This document shows, one piece after another, positions 22,413 to 44,357 of a stretch of DNA of 57,074 bases. Each line of letters starts with the position of its first letter. Positions within the stretch are counted from its first letter, which is position 1. The DNA comes from a virus, in IMG/VR virus record IMGVR_UViG_3300006735_000038, positions 1-57,074 of that record; one strand, 5' to 3'. A program made the translations under genes and the position numbers. Below the pieces are notes generated by a model. That model saw only the letters and a list, made by a program, of their open reading frames with translations, ran no database searches and was not told where the DNA came from.

Positions 22413-22810
22413 TCTTTGCCTCCAACTTGGTAGCCAGTTTGATCTTTGAACAATTCAAATTCAGCTAAGTCATCAGCAAAACCACCAGACTCCCTTAAAG
22501 TTACCGAGTCCATATTAGGTATGTCTAACTTTATGTCTTCAATAATGTCACCATCAAATGTTATTGGATTGTTTTCATTATCTAACTCTACAGCAGCAAG
22601 AGTACTACTATTATCTAAAATTTGATTTAAATACTTAGGGTACTCATCAAAGACTTCTCTGTATCTTTCAATCCGTTGATTCAATAGGCTTGCATCGCCA
22701 GCGCTAAAGCCTTGTTCAGAAATAACAGTTCCATCATCGTTAAAATTAAGAAATGCTCTTACACGCTGTGGAGATACATCAAACTGATTTATTATTGCAA
22801 ATCTATTCAT
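22409..22810 (-). CDS. Hypothetical protein, 133 aa, head gene block
   Basis: Not recognised. Acidic, with QRVRAFLNFNDDGTVISEQG and LDNENNPITFDGDIIEDIKL; no cysteine motif or membrane segment. Start overlaps the end of the 3497-codon ORF (GAGGTGG ribosome site inside that gene) and its end overlaps the 230-aa gene, so translation is probably coupled to the giant ORF. Confidence 0.65.
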   Translation of the reverse strand: MNRFAIINQFDVSPQRVRAFLNFNDDGTVISEQGFSAGDASLLNQRIERYREVFDEYPKYLNQILDNSSTLAAVELDNENNPITFDGDIIEDIKLDIPNMDSVTLRESGGFADDLAEFELFKDQTGYQVGGKE

Positions 22811-25800
22811 CGTTGACCACCTCGTCGAATGGCGCTTGAATTGTTTCGTAAGCTTCTTCTAACAATTTAATTATATCTTCTCTACTGGCTTGTTGCAACC
22901 ATCGGCGTCGTTCTTGAAACGCTCTTCGGACGTCAATAACTGCATCACCTAAGTCACCGAACTCTCCCATCTGACGATCTATAGTACCGAAATTTCTTTC
23001 TATATCAAGTATAGATTCATCATCAATAGTATTACCTAACTGTGCGACTTGTGAAAGAATGTCATCAACTACAGAGTTTAACTTTGATTTATCAATCTTT
23101 ATTTCAGACGTGTCTTTTCCTCTTACAGAATCTTTACCAAGAACTTTAGCTAATCCCATCCTCCTTAAGTTAGGAGTAGTATCAAAGGTATCCATTAAAT
23201 GCGCAACAATTATTTTCTTTAATTGCTCCCGCCCGTCCTCTTCTATACGTATAATTTTACTTTCATCAGGAACAGTAGGTCCCATATAGGTAATTCCTAT
23301 CTTTCCATCTACTGCTCTACTGGTCCTAGAATAAACACCTCGTCCAGCATCTATAGGCAACAATGATACAGTTCCATCTGGATTTCTCTTAATAAACAAA
23401 TTGCCAGCATTCCTATCAGAGTTATTAATGACACCATCAAGTAACAACAACCTTACAATATCTGCAGGATCAACAGACCCTAGCAACTCTACATATTGAG
23501 CATCAGTTGGACTTGGAGGCAGCCCTCCATTAAATTCATCATTTAAGGGAACAATATCAGGCCCATGAATATTTTGAAGAGGCTCAATAATTACTGCATT
23601 TCGTATGTTGTTGATATCCCCTGCTGATATCACGGCACCAACTTCAAAACCAAGTGCGTTAGCCATTGCTGCACCCAACGCTTCATTAGTGCCACCATTT
23701 TCCTCAGTGTTCTCACCACCGCCAAAAGCTGGATGATCAAACGTAGCTCCACCATCTCCAACAGGGCTATACTTAGTAATATACTTTTTACCAGTTTCTT
23801 TATCTTCAAACAAAACAGTATTATTACCGCTTACAAGACCCGTTCTAAAGAAACGGCTATCATCGCCACGGTCCTCCGAAGAGTTTAAAACAAAGAAATC
23901 AAACAAAAAATCTTGCTTGATTTTATCAAGAGGCGTGTCACTAGGAATATCAGCTGGAGTCAAAGGATCATTAGGACCTGCAGTAGACGGGCCTGTTGTT
24001 CTTAACTGACCACGGTCTTGGAGAGTACTTGTATTCACAGTCCCTGTAAACACCACTGCACCATACGCATCCTTTTTAAACGCTCTACCAGTGGTAGGAC
24101 TTTCAGTAACACTCTGCCTACCACTGAGTATCTTTGAAATTTCCGAGGCGGTTCTATCAGAAGGCAAAGGGGAATCAGGCGATGAAAGAGGATTAACTCC
24201 AGTTAGATCCCGATTCCCATACACAAGGAATGCTGAATCAGGCAAATCTAAAGGTAGATCAAGAATAGGATCATCAACAGTTCCTAAATTCTCAATTTCA
24301 ATGTCTGGGTTTTGCTCAATTACTTGTTTCAACTTTGCAGAATCAAAAACATTCTGAGAGAAAAATACAAAAGCTGCAGTATTTTTTCCTTCACCACTTG
24401 GATCAAGTGTCCTAATATAGTCAACATGCTGTGGCCTGTTAACAGATGGGCCAAAATTAGCCATTGCTTTTATAGCCTTAGCCCTAGAAATATTCCCAGT
24501 TATTAAGGCTGCATGCTTTTCATCAGGAGTAGTATCAATACCTGCATCACGTTTAGTGAAAAATGCTATAGCCAAGTCAGCTACTTGATTCATCTCCCTG
24601 TCAAGCGAATCTAACGTAGCAGTGTCAGGAGTTATTACCCCTGCTCTAGCCCATGCTGCAGACCCGTCAAGACTTGCACCCATTGTCCACTTATCAACAC
24701 CAAGTGCATCATAGAACAGCATAGCATTGTCATTCATTACCCTTGAAAGACCTGAACCTCGTGCATCCACTACTATAGGGTCACCATTGACAGGGGTAAA
24801 AGTTGCCTTACCCGCAAAAAATCCAGCATGAGTAGCTTCGCTGGTGCCTCCACTACTCGTAATTTGTCTCTTAAAATTACCTCTATTAAGAGCTGGCCCC
24901 TGAGTACGGGCCCCTTTAATAGCAAAATTATTTAACAAATCCTGACCTTCAGGAGAAAACGCCCCTAGCTCATTAACTTGTTCAAGAACATCGCTTGGAA
25001 CCAAATAATGGGTGAATTCTCCATCAATAGTAATACTATAACCGCCAGACGCTGGAATCTTTGCTCCACCAGCATCATAAACTTCTGGCTTAGTAACTAA
25101 CGTATACTGTTTTAATCCTTCTCCAAAATCTGCTTCAACAGTTTTGTTCAAGGGAATGTAAATTCCTGATAAACCAAAATTATCTTTAAAAGTTTTAATA
25201 GACTCATTATCTACTGTAGAAGGCTCTGGATCTACGCTTATACTTGGTCGAGGCGGCGTTATCCCAGTTGTAAGATCAGGAGGAGCCCACGGCGTTATAC
25301 CACGCTCAATATCGCCACCCCAAATATTTACTGCTTGAGAAGCTACACGTGCTTCCGTTGCAGTATCTAGCTGGTTACGTGCATTATCAGCTGATTCTTC
25401 TCCCCATACATTTGGGACTTCAGCTTTACTAGCTACCCTACCCCTTGCTCTTGCTTTAGCAAAAGAATTCCTGATCCTCAAATTTCTCCTACTTCGTATA
25501 CGTAGTTCTCTATCCACTTCCCCTGAAAAGTATGCAATATTACCATTAAAACGAAAAACGTTTGGGGCAATTTCGCCTCTAGCCTCGTATCCCTTAGGAT
25601 TGCTAATTGGGGATGAAAGCGTACCCCGAAGTGATATAATCTCATCATTTAATTGCTTTATATGTTGTAAATTAAGTCTTTCTCCTTTGAGATTCTGCCT
25701 AAACCATTCTGCCATAGGGCCATCAAGCTCACCATTATGAAACTGTTCCTCTAATGCGTACAAGTCATCAATAAACTTTTTGGCTTTATCACTCATGGGG

Positions 25801-28800
25801 CCGAAAGAGGATGTGTCGGGTGCATCTGTCCATATTTCGTCACTATCATCAAAAACTGTAGATGATAAAAATTGAGTATCCCCTATTATGCCAAGATCCT
25901 TTAAAGTAATTCCATAAGCCTCAAGTCTAGCATAAATGGCTTCCAACATGTCATCGTCCAAAAAGTCATCTTCAATGACACCAGAATCAATACCAAACAC
26001 TTCATCAGGAAAACCTGCACCAGTCTCCCCGTCAAATTCCCTTAGACTAAGTATGATACTACGTCGGCTTTCGTACCCTTCAAGCAAATATGCTAATGCC
26101 ATTTTCTGCAGACCCTCTTTCACTTCTGATTCATCAGGAGTCCGTAAATCAATTCCCAAAAGCTCCAGTATCGGTGAATTATTAGGATCATCCCCAACAA
26201 CTCCTCTTATTTGATCATTACGAAGTTTTATAGCAATTGCAATATCATCAGATATTGCAGGACGCAAAATATTTCTAGCCCTTTCAAGATCTCCTACTAC
26301 CCATGCTTCAAGAGCCATATCAACCCTAGCTGTCATTGGTTCTGTCCGTTGGCTGACTCCAGAAATAGGATTTAGCAAATCCACAGTAAAAGCATTTGTA
26401 CTCTTTTCAATTGGCCTACCATCAACACCTCGTCTATTAATGACGCCCAAGTCTTTCTGAAGGTTATCTATAACGCCAAGAGCATTTAGTAAATTATCAC
26501 TAACCCCATCAGCGTCTAATTGCTCTAAAAGTATTTGTTTCATTCTAGGTAAGTCCCTTTGCGCGACACCTAATTCTGCAAGGGTTATGAACTGATAATT
26601 CTCAAAATCTCCCAGACTTAATGCAGCTATCGCCAGTTTTCTATCTATCTCTAATTCTAGATTCTTAAGTTGCCTAGTTAGTCTTTCTCTAGTCGCTGGC
26701 TGTATAAAAGGATCATCATTTAGCTCAGTGCCATATAAAAGGCGATCTATTTTTGCAGCAGCATCTCTAAGACCTTCAATTGACATATCTCCCATACTGC
26801 GTGGAGCTAAAGTAGCCGAAACATACTCTGGAAGTTCCGGTTGCCTAGCGTAAGGTGATCTTGTGACTAGGTTTCTGCCCGCCTCAGGTATTGCGATTTC
26901 TAGAAGAGCGTCTGTCAATGGAAGGTATCTGTCCGTCTGATACAGCCAAGAGTTACCAACTATATCTCTATCTACGTTAATTTCAAAAAACGCTTTATCC
27001 ATTTTTCGCCTGTTAAGACGTTCCGCACCAGTTAAATCTCTTGAGGACATGCCTTTTAACCGCTCATATGCTGAATGAAACTCTTTTATTTCCTCATTTG
27101 TTAAAGTCGATAAGAATCCTGATATGTCTAATGATCTATGTGTTCTGATAGAACCAATTCCAAGATTTTCATTATCTTGACCAGTCATTCTTCTGATGTA
27201 AGTATCAAAAATATTTCCAGCTTCAGCAATTGATATAAGATTGCCAAGCCTTTCAGCGCCTAAAGTTCTTAAAGTTTCTGGCGCAATAGCTCTAGCCCAA
27301 CCTGTATCTATAGGGTCTAAATCATCTAAGTCATCTAAGTCATCTCTGTACCTTATAGCGTCAAGAAGGCCTCTAAGAGAATGCACTCTTGGGTCTACTT
27401 GATGTGCAAACCCAAAATTAATACCAGTTCCCTCAATGTCATACGAGGAAGGAGATCCAATTTCTCTTATAGCACTCTCACCAATTAACTGATTTTCGTT
27501 GATCTCTAAAGCTAATTCATCAAGCATATTAGAAATTTTACTCAACCGTCGATAACGTATAGTATTTCGCTGCGTTTCTTCAGCTAGAATGCTTTTCATA
27601 TTTAATCGCATTGTATCTAGCTCTTTGGAAGTCATCTTAGCATAAACTATTGTTCTTAGTTTATCAATAAGCTCCGCCTCAGGAAGTTGACCTAATCCAA
27701 AACGATTTTCAATATTGGGATTATGGGTTAGTATCTTTTCAGCGATACCGTCAGTTTCTTGCTCAAAAATATTAATAACATCCCTAGTGGTTTCTTCAAC
27801 AGTTCTTCTAGCTATTTCCTCATTTACAAGTCTTTTAAAAATATCAAAATCCCTAAGAGGAGGATTACTGGTAAAACCAATATCCAAAGCAGCCATAGTA
27901 GTATCAGAAAAATCAATTTCACGAGTTTCCCCATCAGACATTACTAAAGAAAATACAGTGTTAGTAGGGTCCTCTAAAGCCCTTCTTTCAAAACCTTCAA
28001 GCTGATAAGCTAAGTTTAATATGTTTTGGCGATCTTCAGGATTACTAAAAGAAAGATCAGACTCTCTAACTAATTCAGATAGGATCGCTTGTGCAGGGGC
28101 AGACCCGCCTCTTTCCCTTACTCGAGTTGGAAGCAAGTTACCAGCAGAATTAGTAAAAAACAATTCTTCCAAAGCATCCGCTAAACTATTTAACTGCTCT
28201 GAATCTAACCGATTTAAATTTTCCTTTATCTTTGATTGCACTGTTGGATTATCTATATTAACGTTCTGGACGCTTAATAAACGATCAACAACTGAATCTT
28301 CACCACCCAAAATAATATCTAATAATTTTCTTTTATCGTCAGAAAGATTTACAGTTTCCCCATCCCTATCAATAAACTCTATATTTAAATCAAACGGCCT
28401 TAAGCTTTCAAATAGTGCTTGGGAATAAGGCACAGATCCAATATCCAGTTTCTCTTGGATTCTTTCACTAAATTGACTTTCTTTTCGGTATTTTGCAAGC
28501 AATGAACCTGCCAATAGTTTTTGATTAATCTTTTCAAAAGTATCTATATTAGACACTGAAGTAAACTCTTCATCGGTATTAGATGGTAGAAAACGAGTTA
28601 TGTCGTCTTGCCACGCAAAAACAGACCCCTCTATGTCTATAAGGAAATTAATATAGTTATCTAACTCTTCCAAACTTAAATCAGAGTTTTCCAGTTTATC
28701 CGCTATTTCTGAAGGTTGAATATCAGGCGTATTTTCATACGGGTAAACATCTTTTTCTCCACCAAAAATAGCACGTGTTACCTTGAGAGCCGTCACAGAG

Positions 28801-31800
28801 TCTATCCTGCTAGATATATTACGAAAGTCATCATCTACGAGGTTATTGGTGTTGTCTATAGCGTCAAGTGCGGTATCGGTATCAGAAGGGATACCAAGCA
28901 ATAGCCCCATCTTTCGTTTTAGAGAACTGTCTTGTTCCGGTCCCTCAAGAGCGGTGTTATACAAAGTAACACCTAGTTTCGTTAACAAATTATTGTATCT
29001 TGATTCACCAGTAAACGTCGGGTTAGCCTCCAACAGCCCTCGTTCTCCTAAAAGGTTCGTGCCATCTGAATCAAGGTATCTTTGAAATAGGGCGACACCT
29101 GTGTTTCCATTTATACTCTCCAGTACCCTTTCAGTGTTTTGACCAAGTTTTCTATGATTTGCATCTACCACTCTAGACAATACTTTAGCTACTTCATAAA
29201 AAGCTTCATCACCTATATCACGTTTTAGTTCAGAAAAATCACCATCAATCATCTTCTGAAGCGAATCCTGATCTTTAGCGTAACGATTCAAAAAGTCTAA
29301 AAGAAAATCTTCAGGAGTGTCGATTAGAAAAGTTCCTACAAGTTTACCTTTTAAATCATTTATTTCTTCTTGAGTGAATCCCGTATCTTGCCATTCTAAT
29401 CCAAAGGTGTCTTGAAAGAGAGCATTATCTTTCCATGAGTTACGTAAGCTAAGTCCTTCGCCAATTGGATTTCTCCGAACGGCTCCAATACCAATATCAC
29501 TTATACCTTCAGATACAAATTCTGGTCCTGAATTTGGGGTAGCAGTTCCAACTGATAGAAGTCTACGTGTTTCATTTAACAACTCAGGATCAAGTGCAAG
29601 TATCGAACTATTTAAAACCGTGCCATCTGCTTGCCTAAGCTGAGACATGATCGCTGGTAAGCTAAATGAGCCAAATCTTTCATCAAAGTCTGTCCTAAAA
29701 TCTCTCACTTTACCGTCTTCTATAAAAAAGTTTTTAAGAATTTGACGTCCTACGGCTTTAGCAACATCCCGCTCATCCATATCATCGAAATAATCGCTAA
29801 ATTCCCCTTCTGGTAGCCGAAGCTCAAAAATATCTTGAATCATAGCAGCTAAGCGTTCAGCGGTTCTGCTCTCAGCTGAGTCCCGTAAGCTGGTTGATCT
29901 GTTGTGATAACCATCTCCTTGAATCCGATCAGCATCTCCATCAACAAAAGAAGCTAACTCTGCCAAAATAGTTTGCCTAATAAGAGAATTAAAAATTTCT
30001 TCACGCCTATCACGCTCAGAAGAGTCAGGCGGAAGTCTTTTTATTTTTTCCCTCATTGCAAAAAGTCTAGGATAATCATTTGGACTTAGACTTGCTACAG
30101 AATCGACATCATCTATAGCAAACTGTATAGCATCTTGTAACAGAAAATTAAACCCAGAGTCATTTTCAAGTTTTCTCGCCTCTGCGAGTTCTCGTATGGC
30201 CTGTATTTTTTCAGGGCCATCAGGCATTGCAGCAATGCGTTCTATTTCTTCGACTGGAGCGTCGTTGGTCCCTAAATCAAGTATAACCCCCTCTGCAATA
30301 TTATTAATTACAGGGGCTAACGGATTTCTTGTAGGAGGAGTGTCTGCATCAGCATCTTCAATATTAATTACTGGATTAGGTATCTCATTAACTGCGTCTG
30401 CTACTGGTTCAACAATGTCTCTGTCCGTGGACATTAAGCCGACTGTTGGATCTTCGGCAACATCTTCATATGAGAATGATTCATATCCTATTTCCGGACT
30501 GGATTGCCTAGAACCACCTCCTATGCCAAGTAGCCTATCAATATCAATTTGATCTTGTTTACGTTGCCTAGCATCTAGTTCTCGCTTGATGGCTTTGTCT
30601 AAATTAATAGTTGCTACATCCCCAACTTCACTATCAGTACGCTCCCCTAAATCACTACGAATAAACTTATACTTATTCTTAAGAAGTTCTCTATCAGCAT
30701 CAGTAAAGTTATCTACCAATTCTTGAATTTCGCCACCTATTTCACTCAACCTAGCATAGTCACGCTCATCAGGTTCCAAAGCCATTATAAACTGAAACTC
30801 ATTCAACAATCCCAAATATTCAGAGCGATCCACATCATCAATATCAAAGTCCTCAGCTGAAGTCAAAGCCTCTATTCTATTCAAACTCTCCACATATAAA
30901 GCAACTAAATCATCATCAGAAAGTTCTTTTAAAGCTTTCTCAGTTGAAGCATTAGTATTTCTGAATTCTTCATCAATCTCATCAATCCTGCCATAAATTC
31001 TTTCCAAAGCAGGACCAAACGGAACTCCAAAATCTGACCTAGCTCCCAAACGCTTAACGTTTTCTTCTATCTCAGTACCCGTAAATATATCTGCAAGTTC
31101 AGTATTCGTAGTCAAAATAGCAGACAAACTCGTAACTTCTTCACTTGGATTATCCAAAACGCTAAGTCTATTAGCAAAATCCCGCTCAGCTTCCCCCAAA
31201 AGCTGAATACCACTTTTATCAAGTTCAGGTATACGCTGCACATTCGCCAAATTACCGATGGCTTCCTCAACTGTAAACCCATCAGACTCCGCCCTAGCAA
31301 TGTACCAAAGTAATTCTTTCTCAGACTTAGACCACGGCTTTCCTTGTGGATCTGAAAGAACTGAGGCTTTGTTTATCATCTTTCTTTGCTTAATTTCTTC
31401 TAAGAAGACATGGGCTTTAGCAATTTCAGGGTATCTCTCCATCAATCCTGCTTGACCAAATTCGCCTCCAGATAGAATAATATCTAGCTCTCTCTCGTCT
31501 ATAGATTGCCCTAGTTCAAGTAAAGTCACATCATCAGTGTCATCTGCCAAAACATCTATAAAAAGATCACGGTCTTCGGGACTCATTTTAAAAGCTTCAT
31601 CATGCAAGTCGAGTATGCGCTCAAACTCTGGAGTAAATGGGATACCGCCATCATCCCTAGGAAGTCTTTCATCATCACCCATACTTGGACGATCCAAAGA
31701 AAAAGATATTGGAGGCGGAGGTGGAGTAGGGGGTTCTTCCAGCATCGAATCTGCTAATGGATTAAATGGTGGAGGAGGAGAAGGCAAAGGCTCTCTAAAC

Positions 31801-33296
31801 TCAGGCTCATCTACCTCTAGCTCAAAGTCAGAAGGAATATCGTACCTAAAGCGAGTACCATCAGGATTTAAAGCTATCGAACGTTTCCTATGTGTACTAA
31901 GCCTACCAACATGGTCAATATAAAGGCCAAGTTCTTCTCTTCTTCTCAAAAAAGGCGTACCAAAATTATGAGCATCTAGAAAATCTTGACGACTCTCATA
32001 ATCGTCATACAACCCAGCATTTCGTTCATCAATATACTTAACCAACGAACTTAATTCAACAAAGTCCTTATACCTAGACATATTCAGTCTATGCGCATCA
32101 GAATCATCAGCAGATATAGCCAAAAAATCTAAAATATCTTCTTCAGTTATTTCCGACTCATCGTAATTCCTAGGTATTCTTCTACCCACACTATCTACAC
32201 GCTCCCTCTCAGGAAGCAGCTGATCTATCCAAAAATTCTTTAACTCTGTGTGCTCTTGCTTAATTCTGTCATCTAACTCATTTCTATCACGAGAATGCAT
32301 AGACAACGCACGCAGCTTCCTAGGCTTTCTTTTTCGGTCCTTTAATTCACCTTTTCGATTCCTCAAATTAAATTTTCTACGACGTAAACTTTGAGTATTA
32401 TTTAAAGACCGCCTAGTGTACCTTCTAGTTCCATCAACAATTCCATATCGCTCAGGAGAATAATCTGGCCTCAAATAATCTGGCATACCCCTCTCGTCAA
32501 CTCCAATGCCTTGACGATCAGGGAGAACAGAATTAATAAATACGGGCGGAGGAGCATCAGGAAGGGTTTCATCAACAGAATCTATGTCTCTAGGAGTAAC
32601 AGGCCTAGTGTCTCTCCTTCTAGCACTAAGAGCATTTAACAAACTTCCATTTATGGCTTCAATCTGTCGCTGAACTTTACGGTTATCTCTTGCCTCACCA
32701 GAAGTCAAAGAAAGCCTTCCAGCTTCAGCTTTCATAGAGCGCTCAATAGCATCAACAATTTTAGTATATGTAGCGTCATCAATATTTTCAAAGTCAGGCA
32801 TATTGATTAAACGTTGCAAATTGTTTACATCTTCAAAAAAGGAATCACCTTTTAAGACATCTCTATCTTCACGTGACATCCCTGACAACTGGGATAACTC
32901 CCCAATCGACCTACCTAGTATTCCTCTAGTTTCATACTGAGCGGCAACATCATCTAAATTCTTGGAAGAAGCCAATAAAGAATCTATAGCATTATCCAAA
33001 TTATTTTTATAAATATCTGGTAAATCCCTAGACCTTTGCTCAGGTCGCTTAGGAAGCAGCCTGCCCCTTCTTCTAGTTGTATTAGTTATTGCCGCTTGTA
33101 ATTTAGCAATAGAATCAACAACCGAATCAGCCAACCTATACCCACAATTAGTACCAAACCTATCAGTAAAGGTTCCACCCCGTCTAGTTCCGGGTGGGCA
33201 CCTAAATCTGTTCGCCCCCGCATCAAAAATAGCAGCACTAGATGCACGACGCCCTACCCTAGCAAGCCGTCTAGGAGCACTTTGTTTCTGATCCAA
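22803..33296 (-). CDS. Giant head-associated protein (3497 codons) with C-terminal kinase-like domain
   Basis: The ORF has no ATG or GTG near its start; the first usable codon is TTG at 33296 with no ribosome site, and the frame is open upstream as far as an A9 run at the end of the 568-aa gene. It is probably translated as a fusion. Residues 33-57 hold NRFRCPPGTRRGGTFTDRFG, also present in the 568-aa gene. A proline-rich linker lies at ~500-540. Most of the rest is acidic helical sequence without recognised domains. Near residues 3130-3330 a kinase-like fold is suggested by a Gly-rich strand, DGVINNSDRNAGNLFI (D3287, D3294, N3299) and LLPIDAGRGV (D3316), the catalytic and metal loops of HipA/PI3K-like kinases. 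A virion location is inferred from the head-gene context. Confidence 0.7.
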   Translation of the reverse strand: MDQKQSAPRRLARVGRRASSAAIFDAGANRFRCPPGTRRGGTFTDRFGTNCGYRLADSVVDSIAKLQAAITNTTRRRGRLLPKRPEQRSRDLPDIYKNNLDNAIDSLLASSKNLDDVAAQYETRGILGRSIGELSQLSGMSREDRDVLKGDSFFEDVNNLQRLINMPDFENIDDATYTKIVDAIERSMKAEAGRLSLTSGEARDNRKVQRQIEAINGSLLNALSARRRDTRPVTPRDIDSVDETLPDAPPPVFINSVLPDRQGIGVDERGMPDYLRPDYSPERYGIVDGTRRYTRRSLNNTQSLRRRKFNLRNRKGELKDRKRKPRKLRALSMHSRDRNELDDRIKQEHTELKNFWIDQLLPERERVDSVGRRIPRNYDESEITEEDILDFLAISADDSDAHRLNMSRYKDFVELSSLVKYIDERNAGLYDDYESRQDFLDAHNFGTPFLRRREELGLYIDHVGRLSTHRKRSIALNPDGTRFRYDIPSDFELEVDEPEFREPLPSPPPPFNPLADSMLEEPPTPPPPPISFSLDRPSMGDDERLPRDDGGIPFTPEFERILDLHDEAFKMSPEDRDLFIDVLADDTDDVTLLELGQSIDERELDIILSGGEFGQAGLMERYPEIAKAHVFLEEIKQRKMINKASVLSDPQGKPWSKSEKELLWYIARAESDGFTVEEAIGNLANVQRIPELDKSGIQLLGEAERDFANRLSVLDNPSEEVTSLSAILTTNTELADIFTGTEIEENVKRLGARSDFGVPFGPALERIYGRIDEIDEEFRNTNASTEKALKELSDDDLVALYVESLNRIEALTSAEDFDIDDVDRSEYLGLLNEFQFIMALEPDERDYARLSEIGGEIQELVDNFTDADRELLKNKYKFIRSDLGERTDSEVGDVATINLDKAIKRELDARQRKQDQIDIDRLLGIGGGSRQSSPEIGYESFSYEDVAEDPTVGLMSTDRDIVEPVADAVNEIPNPVINIEDADADTPPTRNPLAPVINNIAEGVILDLGTNDAPVEEIERIAAMPDGPEKIQAIRELAEARKLENDSGFNFLLQDAIQFAIDDVDSVASLSPNDYPRLFAMREKIKRLPPDSSERDRREEIFNSLIRQTILAELASFVDGDADRIQGDGYHNRSTSLRDSAESRTAERLAAMIQDIFELRLPEGEFSDYFDDMDERDVAKAVGRQILKNFFIEDGKVRDFRTDFDERFGSFSLPAIMSQLRQADGTVLNSSILALDPELLNETRRLLSVGTATPNSGPEFVSEGISDIGIGAVRRNPIGEGLSLRNSWKDNALFQDTFGLEWQDTGFTQEEINDLKGKLVGTFLIDTPEDFLLDFLNRYAKDQDSLQKMIDGDFSELKRDIGDEAFYEVAKVLSRVVDANHRKLGQNTERVLESINGNTGVALFQRYLDSDGTNLLGERGLLEANPTFTGESRYNNLLTKLGVTLYNTALEGPEQDSSLKRKMGLLLGIPSDTDTALDAIDNTNNLVDDDFRNISSRIDSVTALKVTRAIFGGEKDVYPYENTPDIQPSEIADKLENSDLSLEELDNYINFLIDIEGSVFAWQDDITRFLPSNTDEEFTSVSNIDTFEKINQKLLAGSLLAKYRKESQFSERIQEKLDIGSVPYSQALFESLRPFDLNIEFIDRDGETVNLSDDKRKLLDIILGGEDSVVDRLLSVQNVNIDNPTVQSKIKENLNRLDSEQLNSLADALEELFFTNSAGNLLPTRVRERGGSAPAQAILSELVRESDLSFSNPEDRQNILNLAYQLEGFERRALEDPTNTVFSLVMSDGETREIDFSDTTMAALDIGFTSNPPLRDFDIFKRLVNEEIARRTVEETTRDVINIFEQETDGIAEKILTHNPNIENRFGLGQLPEAELIDKLRTIVYAKMTSKELDTMRLNMKSILAEETQRNTIRYRRLSKISNMLDELALEINENQLIGESAIREIGSPSSYDIEGTGINFGFAHQVDPRVHSLRGLLDAIRYRDDLDDLDDLDPIDTGWARAIAPETLRTLGAERLGNLISIAEAGNIFDTYIRRMTGQDNENLGIGSIRTHRSLDISGFLSTLTNEEIKEFHSAYERLKGMSSRDLTGAERLNRRKMDKAFFEINVDRDIVGNSWLYQTDRYLPLTDALLEIAIPEAGRNLVTRSPYARQPELPEYVSATLAPRSMGDMSIEGLRDAAAKIDRLLYGTELNDDPFIQPATRERLTRQLKNLELEIDRKLAIAALSLGDFENYQFITLAELGVAQRDLPRMKQILLEQLDADGVSDNLLNALGVIDNLQKDLGVINRRGVDGRPIEKSTNAFTVDLLNPISGVSQRTEPMTARVDMALEAWVVGDLERARNILRPAISDDIAIAIKLRNDQIRGVVGDDPNNSPILELLGIDLRTPDESEVKEGLQKMALAYLLEGYESRRSIILSLREFDGETGAGFPDEVFGIDSGVIEDDFLDDDMLEAIYARLEAYGITLKDLGIIGDTQFLSSTVFDDSDEIWTDAPDTSSFGPMSDKAKKFIDDLYALEEQFHNGELDGPMAEWFRQNLKGERLNLQHIKQLNDEIISLRGTLSSPISNPKGYEARGEIAPNVFRFNGNIAYFSGEVDRELRIRSRRNLRIRNSFAKARARGRVASKAEVPNVWGEESADNARNQLDTATEARVASQAVNIWGGDIERGITPWAPPDLTTGITPPRPSISVDPEPSTVDNESIKTFKDNFGLSGIYIPLNKTVEADFGEGLKQYTLVTKPEVYDAGGAKIPASGGYSITIDGEFTHYLVPSDVLEQVNELGAFSPEGQDLLNNFAIKGARTQGPALNRGNFKRQITSSGGTSEATHAGFFAGKATFTPVNGDPIVVDARGSGLSRVMNDNAMLFYDALGVDKWTMGASLDGSAAWARAGVITPDTATLDSLDREMNQVADLAIAFFTKRDAGIDTTPDEKHAALITGNISRAKAIKAMANFGPSVNRPQHVDYIRTLDPSGEGKNTAAFVFFSQNVFDSAKLKQVIEQNPDIEIENLGTVDDPILDLPLDLPDSAFLVYGNRDLTGVNPLSSPDSPLPSDRTASEISKILSGRQSVTESPTTGRAFKKDAYGAVVFTGTVNTSTLQDRGQLRTTGPSTAGPNDPLTPADIPSDTPLDKIKQDFLFDFFVLNSSEDRGDDSRFFRTGLVSGNNTVLFEDKETGKKYITKYSPVGDGGATFDHPAFGGGENTEENGGTNEALGAAMANALGFEVGAVISAGDINNIRNAVIIEPLQNIHGPDIVPLNDEFNGGLPPSPTDAQYVELLGSVDPADIVRLLLLDGVINNSDRNAGNLFIKRNPDGTVSLLPIDAGRGVYSRTSRAVDGKIGITYMGPTVPDESKIIRIEEDGREQLKKIIVAHLMDTFDTTPNLRRMGLAKVLGKDSVRGKDTSEIKIDKSKLNSVVDDILSQVAQLGNTIDDESILDIERNFGTIDRQMGEFGDLGDAVIDVRRAFQERRRWLQQASREDIIKLLEEAYETIQAPFDEVVNDE

Positions 33297-33385
33297 ATAA
33301 TCACTAAAAAGAGAAGCCCTGAAATTTACTTCATCAAAATATGAGCTGTCTGCTTTTAAAGCTAAAGCAATCTCTTTAGTCGAAT

Positions 33386-33403
33386 TTAACTGACTTTTTT
33401 TTT
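33386..33403 (-). promoter_or_regulatory. A9 slippery run: probable -1 frameshift (or indel) joining two ORFs
   Basis: Minus strand codons AAA AAA AAA (33403-33395) followed by GTC AGT TAA end the 568-aa ORF. A -1 shift on this run enters a frame open for 33 codons up to the TTG at 33296 and then through the whole 3497-codon ORF, giving ~4096 aa. The joining peptide SQLNSTKEIALALKADSSYF looks coding. A CGTAC/GTACG hairpin lies ~13 bases upstream of the run. The alternative is a homopolymer length error or recent indel. Confidence 0.6.
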
Positions 33404-35092
33404 ATGTGAATAATCGTACATATGTGTACGTCGGAAAGAAGGATCTAGCGCTTTCTTCCCATTCTCAACAACTTCGAAAACTGGTGAAGATTTTGGTCTA
33501 CGGGGTGCAGACCTAGACAAGAAGGTTTCATAAACCCACCTAGGCACAACTTGTACTTTATCGCCAGACTGAACTCTAACAAGCTCACGCATCTCTTTCG
33601 TTACAGTCGCAAACTTTCCACCGGAAACCTCACCAAAGTCTAGTTTAAAACGCTCTTCAGTTATCTCTGAAAAGTTTCTTAAAAATGCTGTTGGATCAGG
33701 AATGTCCGCAGCCCTACTAACCGCAGATTGAATATTAGTTTTAAGGCTACCAAGCTCTTCAGGTGAAAGCTCTCCACCATCTCTATAAATTCTTATAGCC
33801 CCCACATCCGGAATAGCTACATAAATGTCCCTCAATCCAGTACTGAAAGCTTGAACAGCGTCCCTTCCAATGTTCTTCTCAGCTCTATCACGAATTAACA
33901 AAGAGCCATCAGCTAAATCATCAAACTCATCTAGTTTACCTAAAGCAGCAAATGAAACTGCAGGCTCAAGAATCAAACCATCACGGCGTATAATTCTAGA
34001 ACCAAGCGATTCAGTATTATACGCAGTTAACAATAAATCTAGTGCCTGTTGCTGTCTAACAAAAGAATTCTTCTTTGGGGCAGGTTGAATTAGCGTAGCA
34101 TTAGTAGCTGCGCTAATATTGAATCCTCTAGATTTTCCAACCTCAGGAAACATAGTGCGCATTCTAAATAATCTTGATAACGCCCCTAACAAATCTCCTG
34201 ATGGAGATCCCGGACCTATTCTTGGGACAGATAATATTTGCGCACCACAAGTTGAGAACTGTGAATCAGTAAACGTTCCACCTTTCTCAAATCCCGGTGG
34301 ACACCTAAACTTATTCCTAGCTCCCCTACCAGTGCCTCGAACCAACCTACGAATCCTTGACCTTGCACGGCCTCCGCCCGGAGTTAATGCTTCATAAACT
34401 TGGGATCGAGCAAAACGCCTAGGATTCCAAACGCTTATATCAGAAACATTTCCCGGAGCTATAGCAGTACCAACACCTTGTGCTGCTTGAAGCAACGGGT
34501 TAGAAGAACCAATAGTACCAACTCGTTTAACATCAATATTAGCAGGCAAACTATCCTGCATCTTATTAAACATAGCTGCCTTAAATTCAACAGCCGCCTG
34601 TCTTCCAGCAATCGGCTGATACAAGACACCGCCAAAATCTCTAGACTCTTTCAAAGCCATTTTATACTCAGATACTTCAAACGTATCAGAAACAAAGTCA
34701 TCTGACTTTGCCTTACGAGCAGCTTTACGAATCTTTCGAGTTACTTTACGAGCCTTAGGCTTTTTCTTTTTACGCCCATGATGATTACCTTCATTAGGCC
34801 ACTTACCAGTTACCTCATGGTGCAACCAAGCACAAATTCTTTGAGGAGGGTACAGTTTAGGCTTATCAGCTAGAATCACAACACAGCGCCTAAAGCCACC
34901 GGGTTTTTTCATTATGGGTCGCCAGTATTTTAGGAGATCTTCTAGATTTCCTCGCCTTGGTCCTCGACCTCTTAGAATGTCACCAGTGATGCGCTCTTGA
35001 GGAATACCAATAACTTCTGGTGCTTTTACAGACTGCTCGAAAGCTTTTTCTAGTTTTTCAAATGCTTCGAGTTCATCTTCAAAAATACTCAT
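33386..35092 (-). CDS. Head-associated protein, 568 aa (N-terminal part of giant fusion)
   Basis: Residues ~49-100 contain EDLLKYWRPIMKKPGGFRRC and ICAWLHHEVTGKWPNEG, a motif I associate with actinophage head proteins, followed by a Lys/Arg-rich stretch (~104-128). Residues ~260-283 carry NKFRCPPGFEKGGTFTDSQF, a near copy of a segment at the start of the 3497-codon ORF. The rest is unrecognised. ATG at 35092 overlaps the stop of the small gene upstream (TTATGA). It ends in HKKKVS encoded by an A9 run where a -1 shift would extend it by ~3530 residues. The termination product and the fusion may both be made. Confidence 0.7.
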   Translation of the reverse strand: MSIFEDELEAFEKLEKAFEQSVKAPEVIGIPQERITGDILRGRGPRRGNLEDLLKYWRPIMKKPGGFRRCVVILADKPKLYPPQRICAWLHHEVTGKWPNEGNHHGRKKKKPKARKVTRKIRKAARKAKSDDFVSDTFEVSEYKMALKESRDFGGVLYQPIAGRQAAVEFKAAMFNKMQDSLPANIDVKRVGTIGSSNPLLQAAQGVGTAIAPGNVSDISVWNPRRFARSQVYEALTPGGGRARSRIRRLVRGTGRGARNKFRCPPGFEKGGTFTDSQFSTCGAQILSVPRIGPGSPSGDLLGALSRLFRMRTMFPEVGKSRGFNISAATNATLIQPAPKKNSFVRQQQALDLLLTAYNTESLGSRIIRRDGLILEPAVSFAALGKLDEFDDLADGSLLIRDRAEKNIGRDAVQAFSTGLRDIYVAIPDVGAIRIYRDGGELSPEELGSLKTNIQSAVSRAADIPDPTAFLRNFSEITEERFKLDFGEVSGGKFATVTKEMRELVRVQSGDKVQVVPRWVYETFLSRSAPRRPKSSPVFEVVENGKKALDPSFRRTHMYDYSHKKKVS

Positions 35093-35277: not shown

Positions 35278-36999
35278 CTAAAGACCTTCCTCTGATTTTA
35301 GTGCTTCAAATTCTGCTAACTGCTCTTCCAAAGACTTCTCATCTTCCATTCTACGTGGAGCAGGTGCAGGAGCGTCTCCGCCTCCGCCTGCAGCAGGGGC
35401 TGGAGCAGCAGCAGGGGCTGGAGCAGCAGCAGGTGCAGCTTCACCTTCTTCCCCTTCTTCTCCTTGCATCATTTCTGGTGGAAGCATATCTTCTAACCCT
35501 AGCTCTTTAGCACGCTTCATAATATGTGCTTTAGCAGCAGCTTGATCTTTTGCTCTTGGTAGTGCAACTATTGCATTTTCCAAATCAGCTTGATCAGCAA
35601 TTGGGAATGAACCATCAGGTAGTGCATCTCCGTTTTCAGCCATTTGCTGTCGCTGTTCACGAGAGTACATACGCTTGATTGATAGCTCAGCTTCAAGTGC
35701 TTTTATTTCTTCTTCTTCGCTAAGCTCCGCTTCAGTCTCTAGTTCATACTCATCGTAACCTAGAACTTTACCGTTTACCGAAACAAAGAAATCATAGCTC
35801 TTTTCATCAGCTGCTTCAATCTCAACCACATAAACATCTTCATTACCAAAGACATCTACCATTACACTTGAAATAGAGCCTTCAATTTCTCTATCAGCAA
35901 GTTCTTTAATGGCAACATTTTCAGCATCTTGTCTGGAAATTATGTTTAGGTCTTCAGCAGATTTTTCATCCATGATAGAAGGATCTATAGTGAGCCATCC
36001 TAACTCTTCACCTTCGCCAGACATAAATACCTCAATGTACTTACCTGTGTCTTGCTTAATATCTACAACATAAATATCATCCAATGATGAATATCCTGAA
36101 TTGATAACCTCAGAGTTTGCATATAGTGACTTAACTTGATTTTCTATGTCTGCAAGTCCGGGTAGGCCATCTACAGAAGCACAACCACCTTCACACATGT
36201 CACAAGGCTCATCCAGCATCTTTTTCTGTAAGCCACATAAGCACGCTGATTTCTCACCCTCAGCCATTGCTGCTTGATATGCTTCCATAGTTCCACATGG
36301 CATGAACATTCCATTGCTATGCTGGTGAGCGCCTTCACAGCCAAGCTGAGCTGCTCTTGCAACTGCTTGTGCTTCACTCTCAAACATGTCCTTGTCAGCC
36401 TCATCTTTTCTCTTCATTTTATCTTTGTCATGAGGTTTACCATAATGCTTTTTTCTGTCAGTGTTTATTTCTAGAGGGCTTCTACGGCGATATCGAGTCC
36501 CGTAACCTTTTCCGTCATTTTCTTCAAATACACCAACTTTTTCATAAGCATACTTAGCGTCTTCATCTAATCCATCAAAAGACTCTCTCATAAGAAGTTC
36601 GCCATTTTCCATCATTTCTTTATAACGAACATCAGATAGGAACAATACGGGCATGTCTGATTCTGATTCTTCTTCAGAGATTTGTTGCATAATGCTCATT
36701 GCTTTTGCGCTTATCTCTTTATCATCCGACTTTTCTTCGCCTTCATGATTATCTGATGAATCCTCTTCTTCTTCGACTTCAGCTTCATCTTCGCTATCAG
36801 CTTCTTCAACAACCTCATCAGATTCCTCCCCATCCTCTGATTCTTCAGCTTCTTCTTCTTCTTCAGCTGGGGCTTCTTCCGTAGTCTCTTCTACAGCTTC
36901 TTCCACAGCTTCTTCATCATCTGACTTGACCTCAACTTCTGCAAGCTGAGATTCAAGCTCTTCAAACTTTTGAAGTTCTGCCTCTATATTGTCACTCAT
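35278..36999 (-). CDS. Acidic scaffold-like head protein with PepSY-like domain, 573 aa
   Basis: Residues 1-95 are almost entirely Glu/Asp/Ser/Ala, suggesting a disordered scaffold-like region. Residues 219-241 hold a GC-x-GAH...PC module (LGCEGAHQHSNGMFMPCGT); a Cys cluster C253-C273 (CLC...C..C...C) may bind zinc. Residues ~355-425 resemble a PepSY domain (SRQDAENVAIKELADREIEG, then FFVSVNGKVLGYDEYELE). Residues 451-505 repeat the ALPDGSFPI...HIMKRAKELG module of the 516-aa protein. An Ala/Pro/Gly linker (518-548) precedes an acidic C-terminal helix. It lies between prohead protease and the giant head gene, where a scaffold is expected. AGGAG ribosome site before ATG. Confidence 0.7.
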   Translation of the reverse strand: MSDNIEAELQKFEELESQLAEVEVKSDDEEAVEEAVEETTEEAPAEEEEEAEESEDGEESDEVVEEADSEDEAEVEEEEDSSDNHEGEEKSDDKEISAKAMSIMQQISEEESESDMPVLFLSDVRYKEMMENGELLMRESFDGLDEDAKYAYEKVGVFEENDGKGYGTRYRRRSPLEINTDRKKHYGKPHDKDKMKRKDEADKDMFESEAQAVARAAQLGCEGAHQHSNGMFMPCGTMEAYQAAMAEGEKSACLCGLQKKMLDEPCDMCEGGCASVDGLPGLADIENQVKSLYANSEVINSGYSSLDDIYVVDIKQDTGKYIEVFMSGEGEELGWLTIDPSIMDEKSAEDLNIISRQDAENVAIKELADREIEGSISSVMVDVFGNEDVYVVEIEAADEKSYDFFVSVNGKVLGYDEYELETEAELSEEEEIKALEAELSIKRMYSREQRQQMAENGDALPDGSFPIADQADLENAIVALPRAKDQAAAKAHIMKRAKELGLEDMLPPEMMQGEEGEEGEAAPAAAPAPAAAPAPAAGGGGDAPAPAPRRMEDEKSLEEQLAEFEALKSEEGL

Positions 37000-37032: not shown

Positions 37033-38571
37033 TTACTCAACACCAGAATTGGTGTCAACATCTTTGGGTTTTGTTACCGATAAATCAGGGTCAAAGTCTA
37101 AAGTAGACAATGAGGTAGCTACCTTTTCAAGTAGTTCTTGATGATCCATTTTTGTTGAAAAATGAATATCAACCCCAGAGTCACTCTTGAACGAGAACAC
37201 TGGAATATGGGCAACAGATTGCGTTACATCTAATGATTGCAATTCATCACACTTTACATGGAGAATGAACCCTGACTTTGCGCCTTTTTCTAACTCTAAA
37301 GAAGCAGGGGAATCAGCTAAATAACGCCCAACTCCTTCAATCAATTCTAGTGTAGAGTCTCGAAGTTCACCTGCTCCTCTAAGAGGAATCATTTCATTAT
37401 ACGCCATCATCAGCAATGCTAATGGATCTTTTAAGTAATCCGGCTTTTTCCTCATCCTCATTCCACATGATGGACAAGACCCTCCCATGTGGCCTTTATA
37501 GCCATCTTTAGCTTCCTCCACTTCGACACCTCCAAGATAATTATTGTGTGAATTTAAATTAGCGTTATCGTCGAAAGCTGCTAATGCTTTTCGGTATTCT
37601 TCAGGGGTTTCACATGGAAGATATCCTGCGCCTTCGGAGTGATAACCTTCACATCCAAATGTTTTTGCCCATGCAAGAGCAATATCTGGAGTAGCCCATG
37701 TGCCTTCGTCTGGTTCTGCATCTCTTATGCCTTCTGGCTCTTGTACGTTTTCTTTACGCATCATGTTTGCAGGAGGTTTTGCTTCATCTTCTTCAACTGG
37801 AACATAATTTGCTCTAACTCTGACTGGTTTCCCAATTTGGACTGATCCTTCAGTCATGTTAAAAGGAGCACGCCACATCATATTCGGTCCTGATTGGAAT
37901 ACAACCATTCCTTCATCAGAACTAATAATTTCTACTGGTTTACGCAATGCTTGAGAAATAGCTCTAGAAAGCATTGCAGACATTGATCCCATTTCCATTG
38001 AAGGTTTGTTCATGCCACCTTTTTCATCTTTAACTGATATAGTCCCTGTAAGTTGATTTGCGCCATGCAAAACTGGAGAAATCTCATATAGTTCAACTTC
38101 TTTTAAAACATTTGCTTGATTATTTGTATCAAAGTCAGCAGTTAGCGTTTTGTAACCTATTGACCACTCTTGTTCATTTCCGTAAAATGCTACGTTTGCA
38201 AAAGCTTCACGTCCTCTTTCAGTATTTAGATTAAACTGAACTTTTGCAAAAAGGCCCCCAATGCCAGCTTGTTTCATTTTGTTAGGTAGTCTTGGGTCAG
38301 ATGCAGGAACTTCATATATTTCTAAAACTTTTCCTATTGGCTGATTCCAGTCATGGCCCCAAACTACTCGTGGTTTTCTTCTTTTTAGGGAGCCATTGAA
38401 TGCTCCGCTCATAACTATGTCCCCAACAGAGTCTTTATTTCCTATTCCAGATACAAAACACTCTACGATTCCTTCAGCTTTGTCAATACCAATTTGACCT
38501 GATATTGCTTTAAACACAACATTGTCTTCAATTCGTCGTGCATCTTCCATATCAAAGATTGTTGCAGACAT
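37033..38571 (-). CDS. Prohead protease (S78) with C-terminal extension
   Basis: 512 aa from the ATG at 38571, chosen because it follows TAGGAGAAAA; an in-frame upstream ATG at 38622 lacks a ribosome site. Residues ~25-180 are an HK97-type S78 serine protease: GIVECFVSGIGNKDSVGDIV, catalytic His in VVWGHDWNQPIGKV (~residue 73), catalytic Ser in EWSIGYK (~137) and ELYEISPVLHGAN. It processes the capsid N-terminal delta-domain. The protein is over twice the usual length: residues ~306-320 carry FGCEGYHSEGAGYLPCETPE, the shared GC/PC module, and a CPSCGMRMRKK zinc-knuckle-like stretch follows. It may be both protease and scaffold part. Confidence 0.9.
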   Translation of the reverse strand: MSATIFDMEDARRIEDNVVFKAISGQIGIDKAEGIVECFVSGIGNKDSVGDIVMSGAFNGSLKRRKPRVVWGHDWNQPIGKVLEIYEVPASDPRLPNKMKQAGIGGLFAKVQFNLNTERGREAFANVAFYGNEQEWSIGYKTLTADFDTNNQANVLKEVELYEISPVLHGANQLTGTISVKDEKGGMNKPSMEMGSMSAMLSRAISQALRKPVEIISSDEGMVVFQSGPNMMWRAPFNMTEGSVQIGKPVRVRANYVPVEEDEAKPPANMMRKENVQEPEGIRDAEPDEGTWATPDIALAWAKTFGCEGYHSEGAGYLPCETPEEYRKALAAFDDNANLNSHNNYLGGVEVEEAKDGYKGHMGGSCPSCGMRMRKKPDYLKDPLALLMMAYNEMIPLRGAGELRDSTLELIEGVGRYLADSPASLELEKGAKSGFILHVKCDELQSLDVTQSVAHIPVFSFKSDSGVDIHFSTKMDHQELLEKVATSLSTLDFDPDLSVTKPKDVDTNSGVE

Positions 38572-38637
38572 TTTTCTCCTAAAATAATTGAACTTCTTTA
38601 AGTATCCTATACCTTCAAACAAAGGCTAGTTTGACAC

Positions 38638-38662: not shown

Positions 38663-39460
38663 CTATCTTACAAATTTTAGAACGCATCTGCAGTTAATAG
38701 TTAGATTTGGTGATGCTAATGGATCTTTAGGGAACCTGATTGGGGCTCCATTCACATAAAATGCACTGTTAACAGGTACTTCTTCGCCATTTAGATCTAG
38801 ATGTTGAATCCTAACCTTACCGTCTTTTCTAGAAACCCACTGCTTTTTTAGTGTAGGATCTCTCCTAAACATGCCCACACCTGCATCAAAAATACCCATA
38901 TTATAGGCTCCAAGAACCCCTGTCTCAACTATAAGATTTTTTCTCTTATTTCTTAGTTTATTGAAAATCATTTTAATCAAAATAGCAGCTATGTATGCTT
39001 TATAAACAACGTCTGTATCTCCATTCGCTTCATCACCCGCAAAAGATGCCGCAGTCTGTAAAGCAGTAATGACTTCCTCTTGCGTAGTGCTATTGAAGTT
39101 GTTTACAACTGCTAAATTTTCTGATAGTGCCGCATCGGCTATTTCTTTATCTACTTTAGTGCCAACACCCTCTTCAATAGTGTCTTCCACTCCCTTAACA
39201 TACGCCTTACTCATTTCATTTAATAATGGATTAGTCGATAATGTTAAGTCAGCTAAAGGTGCAACAGAAGAAAAGTCAGCGTCTTCACCAAGACCTAGCA
39301 ACGCCAAAGTAGTTGGCGAGTTCAAGTTATTGACAACAATTGCTTCTTGACTATCAATAATGTTGTCTAAAATTTCACCAAAAGACTTTTCTAAAGATTC
39401 AACTCGATAAAGAGTCTTTTCTTCCCAAGTAGCTATATTCTTATCATCAAGATTCTTCAT
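38663..39460 (-). CDS. Minor head protein, MuF / SPP1 gp7-like
   Basis: 265 aa from ATG 39460, which overlaps the end of the portal gene (out of frame); an upstream in-frame ATG at 39499 would deepen the overlap. The C-terminal ~60 residues are the MuF signature: KKQWVSRKDGKVRIQHLDLN, then VPVNSAFYVNGAPIRFP and TINCRCVLKFV. The N-terminal part is helical. These proteins sit inside the head next to the portal, often ejected with DNA. Position right after the portal gene is standard. Confidence 0.88.
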   Translation of the reverse strand: MKNLDDKNIATWEEKTLYRVESLEKSFGEILDNIIDSQEAIVVNNLNSPTTLALLGLGEDADFSSVAPLADLTLSTNPLLNEMSKAYVKGVEDTIEEGVGTKVDKEIADAALSENLAVVNNFNSTTQEEVITALQTAASFAGDEANGDTDVVYKAYIAAILIKMIFNKLRNKRKNLIVETGVLGAYNMGIFDAGVGMFRRDPTLKKQWVSRKDGKVRIQHLDLNGEEVPVNSAFYVNGAPIRFPKDPLASPNLTINCRCVLKFVR

Positions 39461-40949
39461 TAGAAAGCTCACTAGGTACTTGGGCGGCAGGTACTTCAAC
39501 CTGCTGAGTTCCTTGTACGTTTGCTAAACCTTCTCCACTAGGTACTTGAGCCGCAGGCGCTTCAATTAACTGTGTGCCTTGTACCTGACCTAAAGGCACA
39601 TATCTACCTGTTTCTGGATCAAATTCCCCAAGTTGTTGATTGCTTGCTGCTTGACCTTGCTGACCAAACGGAACTCCTGCTTCCAGAACATCTTCTGTGT
39701 CTTGATTCATTGGTTTTTCAGTATTAGCGATAGGTGTTTGATTTGGATTAGATAGTAGCGAATCAGCAATATCTGATTCTACTTTCTTTCGTCCAGCTGA
39801 CTCTCTATATTCATTGACACTGATTAATCCTAGCTGAAATTCAGTTAGATTATGCTTTTCTCTTTCTTGACTAGCTAGAACAAGCACAGGTACGTTAGTT
39901 ATGTCAAAATCAATAAAATTATCAGGATCAATTGCATCAAAAGACCTAGCTATCAAATCTAGATGAGGTGACATGGTTTCCATCCAAAAAACTTTACCTT
40001 CTTCCATAGCATTAGAGAAAGTCCTATTAGCAGAGTTACCTATAATTGATTCAGGCACACCAAACGCAGCTAGTATTTCTTCTTTGGTTATATTTCTCAT
40101 TTGCACATATGCCGCATCTCTAGGACTTGCCGCTGTGTCTACAAAGTCGGCACCATCATCTGATGAAATAACACCAACTGAACCAGCACGCCCAATGTTT
40201 CCTTGAAAACGAGATCTTAGCTCATCTTTGTCTTGCTCGTCTATTTCACTTCTTATGACTAGCAATCCTCCGGGTCGTCCGTCATTTATCAAAAAGTTTC
40301 TATTGTAAATTTTAGCTAAGCTTTCAAGCTCTATTGCAACTCCTGCTGCTTCCATAGGAGTCATGGACAAGTAAGGGTCTAGCGGATGGGGGCGTCTTAT
40401 CCAAATAACGTTCTGTGGTTTTATCGTTCTTTTCTCGTGAGCGCTTATCTTTACTTCAAACCCTTTTACAAACTTGTTAACATCAGGAATCGGTGAAGTG
40501 TTCTGTGGAGGCAGAAGATGTAACGCAATAGGCATCCCGCCTCTTCCTCTAACAATTTCAACAAACACCCCTCTACTGCTCATAAGAAGCTGAGATGATA
40601 ATCGATATCTAAAAGCGAAAGCGTTTTCTCCATTATTAGCTGTGTTGTTAAAAAGTTTTAACAAATCATCTTCTTGAACTATCTCTCCAAAAGGACTGTT
40701 GTCTTTACGGAGAATCATAGGTAATCGTGCTTGATTAGACGATATAACGTCAATGCACCTAAATACCCATGTTACCTGAGATACACCCTCTTTATATGCC
40801 TTTACAATATCCCAACCATCATGGTAGCCTGATCCTTTTTGCAGAGAAGGGCTGTATGAAATTGGAGCACCTACTGAAATAGGCATGGCTTTTGACGCTG
40901 CGTTACGTAAAGCGTCTTCCAAAGATTTGTTAGAAGTGTTCCAAGCCAT
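39447..40949 (-). CDS. Portal protein
   Basis: 500 aa, HK97 family portal. Recognisable segments are VSQVTWVFRCIDVISSNQAR, FVEIVRGRGGMPIALHLLPP, VIWIRRPHPLDPYLSMTPME, and the clip/stem region GVPESIIGNSANRTFSNAME. It forms the dodecameric gate for DNA packaging and ejection. Residues ~450-493 hold two copies of a VQGTQ-x-x-E-x-PAAQVPS repeat, giving a probably flexible C-terminus. AGGAG ribosome site before ATG 40949; a 52-aa membrane protein gene is just upstream and the terminase is divergent. Confidence 0.93.
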   Translation of the reverse strand: MAWNTSNKSLEDALRNAASKAMPISVGAPISYSPSLQKGSGYHDGWDIVKAYKEGVSQVTWVFRCIDVISSNQARLPMILRKDNSPFGEIVQEDDLLKLFNNTANNGENAFAFRYRLSSQLLMSSRGVFVEIVRGRGGMPIALHLLPPQNTSPIPDVNKFVKGFEVKISAHEKRTIKPQNVIWIRRPHPLDPYLSMTPMEAAGVAIELESLAKIYNRNFLINDGRPGGLLVIRSEIDEQDKDELRSRFQGNIGRAGSVGVISSDDGADFVDTAASPRDAAYVQMRNITKEEILAAFGVPESIIGNSANRTFSNAMEEGKVFWMETMSPHLDLIARSFDAIDPDNFIDFDITNVPVLVLASQEREKHNLTEFQLGLISVNEYRESAGRKKVESDIADSLLSNPNQTPIANTEKPMNQDTEDVLEAGVPFGQQGQAASNQQLGEFDPETGRYVPLGQVQGTQLIEAPAAQVPSGEGLANVQGTQQVEVPAAQVPSELSNEES

Positions 40950-44328: not shown

Positions 44329-44357
44329 AGAATATTCTAAATTTTGTAAAAAGTCAA
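44329..44357 (-). promoter_or_regulatory. Leaderless promoter for the IbrB-like ParB gene
   Basis: Minus strand TTGACT (44357-44352), 17 bases, TATTCT (44334-44329), 6 bases, ATG 44322. It lies within the overlap with the PAPS-reductase-like gene end. Confidence 0.65.

Follow-up and report, generated by a model that had tools for sequence, protein, structure and literature searches.

A nine-adenine run as the likely slip site joining two head-region reading frames of a tailed phage into a giant protein

The window is a viral record of 57,074 bp from a tailed phage that has a tail-sheath gene, and two adjacent minus-strand open reading frames (ORFs) in it appear to be one gene. The first, of 568 amino acids (aa), ends at a run of nine adenines (A9), behind which a giant ORF continues in the -1 frame. 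Sequence comparison gives good support for their fusion into a protein of ~4,096 aa, with A9 most likely acting as the frame-restoring slip site in the lineage of the window. We think it probable that this gene normally yields the 568-aa module and that a fraction of expression slips on A9 to give the 4,096-aa giant.

The 3' end of the 568-aa ORF reads ...CAT AAA AAA AAA GTC AGT TAA, as the first-pass annotation had reported, with the stop codon two codons past A9. The slip heptamer A_AAA_AAA (33401 to 33395) lies inside the overlap of the two frames. From A9 to 22803, the -1 frame is free of stops (3,530 codons); the claim that it stays open for 33 codons into the giant ORF proved correct, the earliest ATG, GTG, or TTG of that ORF being a TTG at 33296, 33 codons past A9, with no Shine-Dalgarno sequence near it by eye. 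A -1 slip would join 566 and 3,530 residues into a 4,096-aa product. The -1 frame has a TAA at 33404 to 33402, just ahead of the remaining As, and the 0 frame has one at 33388 to 33386. Both frames are open for 13 nucleotides (nt) only (33401 to 33389), and the frame change must therefore fall there; 7 of these 13 nt are As of A9. Although A9 is the sole A or T run of ≥8 in the window, dinucleotide shuffles are expected to give ~3 runs of ≥9, so the run by itself is not unusual; its position is.

Compared with relatives that read through in frame, the lineage of the window carries a ~50-nt insertion at the module joint, which holds a 6-bp palindrome, A9, and the 0-frame stop. The RNA of positions 33460 to 33395 (66 nt ending in A9) folds with a z score of -3.05, and none of 200 shuffles was equally stable. 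Downstream of A9, we found no structure (z scores of 0.2 to 0.45), nor did we see by eye a Shine-Dalgarno-like or purine-rich element just before it. Stimulators of -1 frameshifting, be they upstream Shine-Dalgarno-like elements or downstream structures, are helpful but not always required.

Table 1. Features of the joint and of the surrounding head-gene region in the window
Feature	Position	Strand	Basis
568-aa ORF (predicted N-terminal module and short product)	33386..35092	-	Family conserved in viral contigs, 34-55% identity
A9 run	33395..33403	-	Identical in L001 and L002
Giant -1 frame, 3,530 codons (predicted C-terminal part of the 4,096-aa product)	22803..33395	-	Open frame; omega 0.38 versus L002
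33 -1-frame codons before the first possible start	33297..33395	-	Selection and homology indicate coding
Insertion of ~50 nt at the module joint, compared with in-frame relatives	33384..33433	-	Predicted slip-fused protein aligned with relatives
6-bp palindromic hairpin CGTACA-CATA-TGTACG, 11 nt before A9	33415..33430	-	RNA fold
PI3/4K-HipA-CtkA-like kinase domain near the C terminus (approximate limits)	23395..23850	-	Aligned relatives; NSDRNAGN and LLPIDAG motifs
Portal	39447..40949	-	Head-gene run
MuF-like gene	38663..39499	-	MuF-like match, own gene
Prohead protease S78	37033..38622	-	Head-gene run
573-aa protein with DUF3721	35278..36999	-	Head-gene run
Major capsid protein	18740..20029	-	Head-gene run

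The comparison with the family used loci matching the 568-aa module at about 34 to 55% identity. Some 57 of them, many being near-duplicates, read across the joint in one frame, and their C-terminal parts span several hundred to about 3,000 residues, a range partly limited by contig ends. When the -1-frame protein was used in tblastn, homology began at residues 3 to 5 after A9 in many relatives (E values down to 3e-34), and in those relatives the homologous sequence follows the module directly and in frame. Thus, we conclude that the giant ORF probably encodes the C-terminal part of a ~4,096-aa protein, and the fusion proposed in the first-pass annotation is well supported both by these one-frame homologues and by the conservation of the 33 prestart codons as -1-frame protein. 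The annotation had also noticed an FRCPPG..GGTFTD segment in each half, and we find it on the minus strand at 34247 to 34303 in the 568-aa ORF and at 33144 to 33200 in the giant part; many relatives likewise keep an FRCPPG..GGTFTD....CG segment on both sides of the joint.

Substitutions agree with coding in the -1 frame. The L002 contig differs from the window at four positions within the 33 prestart codons, none of which changes an amino acid in the -1 frame; read in the two remaining frames, all four and three of the four, respectively, would be amino acid changes. Between the window and L002, the module has an omega of 0.095 and the first ~790 giant codons have one of 0.38, while pairs of uninterrupted relatives (the near-identical L003 and L004 left out) give 0 to 0.16 for the module and 0.19 to 0.63 for the first 800 giant codons. 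By these ratios, the giant ORF is under purifying selection within the range of its uninterrupted relatives, and the frame break has not visibly relaxed it.

The frame break recurs in two other IMG/VR contigs with different metagenome numbers, L001 and L002, both of which span the joint and have exactly A9. L001 is 99.96% identical to the window and may come from the same population, whereas L002 differs at 68 of 1,992 nt around the joint (3.4%). Conservation of the A run and the frame change among homologues, which the first-pass annotation had put forward as a point of comparison, holds for these two contigs and not for the about 57 one-frame relatives; A9 was found only in the window, L001, and L002, and four separate groups of in-frame relatives have a U6-U7 slip sequence at this joint (see below). 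Neither the viral contigs nor the genome contigs searched contained a relative of ~55 to 95% identity with the same joint, and a search of phage records gave no match.

These contigs bear on whether the run was misread. Were the true run A10 (or A7), the gene would be an ordinary single ORF of 12.3 kb, as in the relatives that are fused in one frame, and indel errors do fall in homopolymers. Yet the same A9 stands in L002 in spite of 3.4% divergence, L001 aligns to the window gap-free over 19,460 bp, and L002 shows just two indels against the window in aligned stretches, of 9 and 18 nt; the homopolymer-indel alternative raised in the first-pass annotation is therefore unlikely. A run this long is also mutable, and a one-base change would switch the frame; changes in its length during DNA replication might leave single phages either giant-on (A10) or giant-off (A9). 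We regard such phase variation as distinctly unlikely, although the presence of A9 in all three assemblies argues against it only weakly, since consensus sequences cannot reveal a minority.

Other relatives show that the parts can be arranged differently. In L069 and L070, the same joint is split by an ATGA start-stop overlap; in L032, the module stands alone and is followed by a protein that by eye resembles the window gene at 20177 to 21727; and in a further group, the kinase part has a gene to itself, at ordinary stop-start spacing. These cases show that the modules are separable and that the joint is a real domain boundary, and a short form is plausible given that the module stands alone in L032 and is an ORF of its own in L069 and L070. 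Initiation of the giant as a protein of its own, at TTG 33296 or a rarer start, could draw on the L069/L070 arrangement and on the TTG itself, but the 33 codons ahead of that TTG are conserved as protein, no ribosome site is seen by eye near the TTG, and we rate a separate start as very unlikely. L032, with no giant directly behind its module, might be taken as a sign that the giant is dead in the lineage of the window and the 568-aa module its sole product; 3,530 stop-free codons and purifying selection no weaker than in the fused relatives make this hardly credible. Equally hard to credit is translational bypassing, in which ribosomes would hop over the insert without slipping and the fusion peptide would lack RRTHMYDYSHKKKSQLN: the insert of about 50 nt does carry a hairpin and a frame change, but we saw no matched take-off and landing codons in the right frame at its ends, and a plain slip on A9 suffices.

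Slippage on A9 would work as follows. Ordinary expression would give the 568-aa N-terminal module, terminating two codons past A9, while some expression events would slip on the run into the -1 frame and add 3,530 residues with a HipA/CtkA-like kinase domain and a helical tail at the end. We infer that slippage takes place, at some frequency, and that both forms are used. RNA polymerase could insert one extra A into the mRNA (A10), or ribosomes could move back one base on A_AAA_AAA, and either route would yield the identical peptide ...HKKK-SQLNSTK.... The sequence fits both routes, the ribosomal one proposed in the first-pass annotation (which took the long form to be rare) and the transcriptional one, leaning slightly to RNA polymerase because neither an upstream Shine-Dalgarno-like element nor a downstream structure accompanies the run. 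Known bacterial genes slip on A9 and A11 (PMC5009743, PMC4256274), and runs of nine As or Ts allow efficient slippage in bacterial transcription (PMC5009743). Seven-A homopolymers are underrepresented in Escherichia coli genes in all frames, for which slippage is a possible reason (PMC4066793).

The closest parallel is tssM1 of Citrobacter rodentium, in which transcriptional slippage on A11 yields two proteins, one short and one full length, both of which are needed (PMC4256274). There too, the A run lies shortly before a stop, and slippage restores the frame so that one gene encodes two products, as we propose here; unlike tssM1, the window gene belongs to a phage head region, has A9, would gain 3,530 residues, and is only predicted to slip. 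In dnaX, which uses -1 programmed frameshifting in E. coli and slippage on nine Ts in Thermus (PMC5009743), two product lengths likewise arise by slipping on an A run, and some dnaX candidates have the reversed arrangement that we propose for the window, the long form arising from the shift (PMC5009743). The E. coli long form is in frame, resembling relatives with a U run (see below) and not the window; the protein also differs, and no stimulator was found at the window joint. As far as PMC10885494 relates them, two phage systems are also similar: structural-region genes are joined by a -1 slip in the tail assembly chaperone (Xu et al. 2004), and a -1 shift gives a longer second form of the major head protein of Lactobacillus phage A2 (Garcia et al. 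2004). In the chaperone, the shift is in tail genes and the added part is small, whereas the window gene lies beside capsid genes and would add a giant; the A2 extension is short, and the window protein is not the major capsid protein.

Many in-frame relatives carry a slip sequence of another kind at the joint. Their joint peptide NPFF or SPFF is coded ...CCT TTT TTC or ...CCT TTT TTT, which contains a U_UUU_UUC/U heptamer, and a U6-U7 run follows APRR in L010, L016, L018, L019, L020, L023, L033, L048, and others; about half of the in-frame relatives have no such heptamer at the joint. A -1 slip on the U run would meet a stop after 0 to 22 codons and leave a short form of ~550 aa. Across four divergent groups, the codons AAC-CCT-TTT have an identity of 1.0 each against a mean of 0.37, the value for AAC resting on three of the six group pairs, and of 128 three-codon windows the two highest-scoring are both located there; no other three-codon stretch in the module region is as well conserved. 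Recombination over short distances at the joint is another way in which these bases could have stayed alike. On the module tree, the U run was gained or lost at least four times. Shine-Dalgarno-like complementarity 8 to 26 nt upstream averages -8.4 kcal/mol in loci with the U run versus -2.1 kcal/mol in those without, a difference that is modest against synonymous shuffles and comes from lineages that are not independent. Since the tests were devised after the sequences had been seen, we treat a U-run slip site as a lead.

If it holds, recoding polarity may be inverted within one family. It is conceivable, though we hold it tentatively, that the joint keeps a recoding site of either polarity, a U run (often with an upstream Shine-Dalgarno-like element) giving the short form in lineages whose giant is in frame and A9 giving the giant in the lineage of the window, whose short module is in frame, and so sets the ratio of a ~550-aa head-region module to a giant that is probably an effector. 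An enrichment of U6 in Phe-Phe codons was suggestive (Fisher P = 0.001), with lineages again not independent, and was set aside in favor of the codon-identity test. We dropped the idea that a terminator-like hairpin ahead of the U run is a general signal in relatives, because such a hairpin clearly exceeded synonymous shuffles only in L027 and L048, in a scan that ended before the last loci. In L023, L028, and others, the giant and the separate kinase ORF show ordinary stop-start spacing, and a second recoding site there was rejected. At its joint (11560 to 11660), L032 has A_AAA_AAG, and its -1 frame runs on for 443 stop-free codons into the following gene, perhaps by chance; that gene also has its own ATG.

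What the giant does is hinted at by its C terminus. The kinase-like domain has the motifs N-x-DR[HN]-xx-N and PID-x-G, with DRN in the window and DRH in most relatives. PF00454 is matched by 5 of 12 aligned members (best E value, 3.7e-7), and a profile of the relatives matches CtkA (3akj) at an E value of 2.7e-4, while the window giant alone has no direct Pfam match in this domain. The 568-aa ORF has no Pfam match and no MuF match; its predicted fold (mean pLDDT, 58) has no PDB match at an E value of ≤0.001, and that of the C-terminal 771 aa (mean pLDDT, 46) is too poor for a structure search.

The head genes of the minus strand come in the order portal, MuF-like gene, prohead protease, DUF3721 protein, 568-aa ORF, and giant ORF, followed by three smaller ORFs and then the major capsid protein. 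If fused, the 4,096-aa product would be a very large multidomain protein among virion genes, between protease and capsid. In size and in gene position, it is similar to phage polyvalent proteins, including MuF fusions, which are also multidomain giants among head genes with a kinase-like domain and perhaps enter the virion (PMC5512222). Unlike in MuF fusions, the N-terminal module is not MuF and the MuF-like gene is separate, and the main text of PMC5512222 makes no mention of frameshifting. If our reading is right, one slip site would set the copy number of a 4,096-residue kinase-bearing protein beside a 568-residue module, which could explain how a phage produces a few giants near its head genes and keeps assembly from being swamped. 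Natural versions of the joint within the family (in-frame U run, A9, start-stop overlap, and module alone) allow a direct test of whether two lengths are needed, and gene callers will split giants of this kind.

Several other genes of the window deserve mention. Short cysteine motifs of the DUF3721 type (GC.GAH....PC) are found again in the protease-like protein and two further proteins of the head region; the ORFs with such motifs at 35278 to 36999, 37033 to 38622, and 20177 to 21727 (minus strand) might share a common tag or binding motif. Near the tail genes, a 2,366-aa ORF (4335 to 11435, minus strand) has a DNA polymerase exonuclease-like match over residues 178 to 380. The window also encodes a B12-dependent ribonucleotide reductase, next to the capsid genes, and has a phosphoadenosine phosphosulfate reductase-like gene; the two are listed together at 15831 to 17792 and 44354 to 45469 (minus strand).
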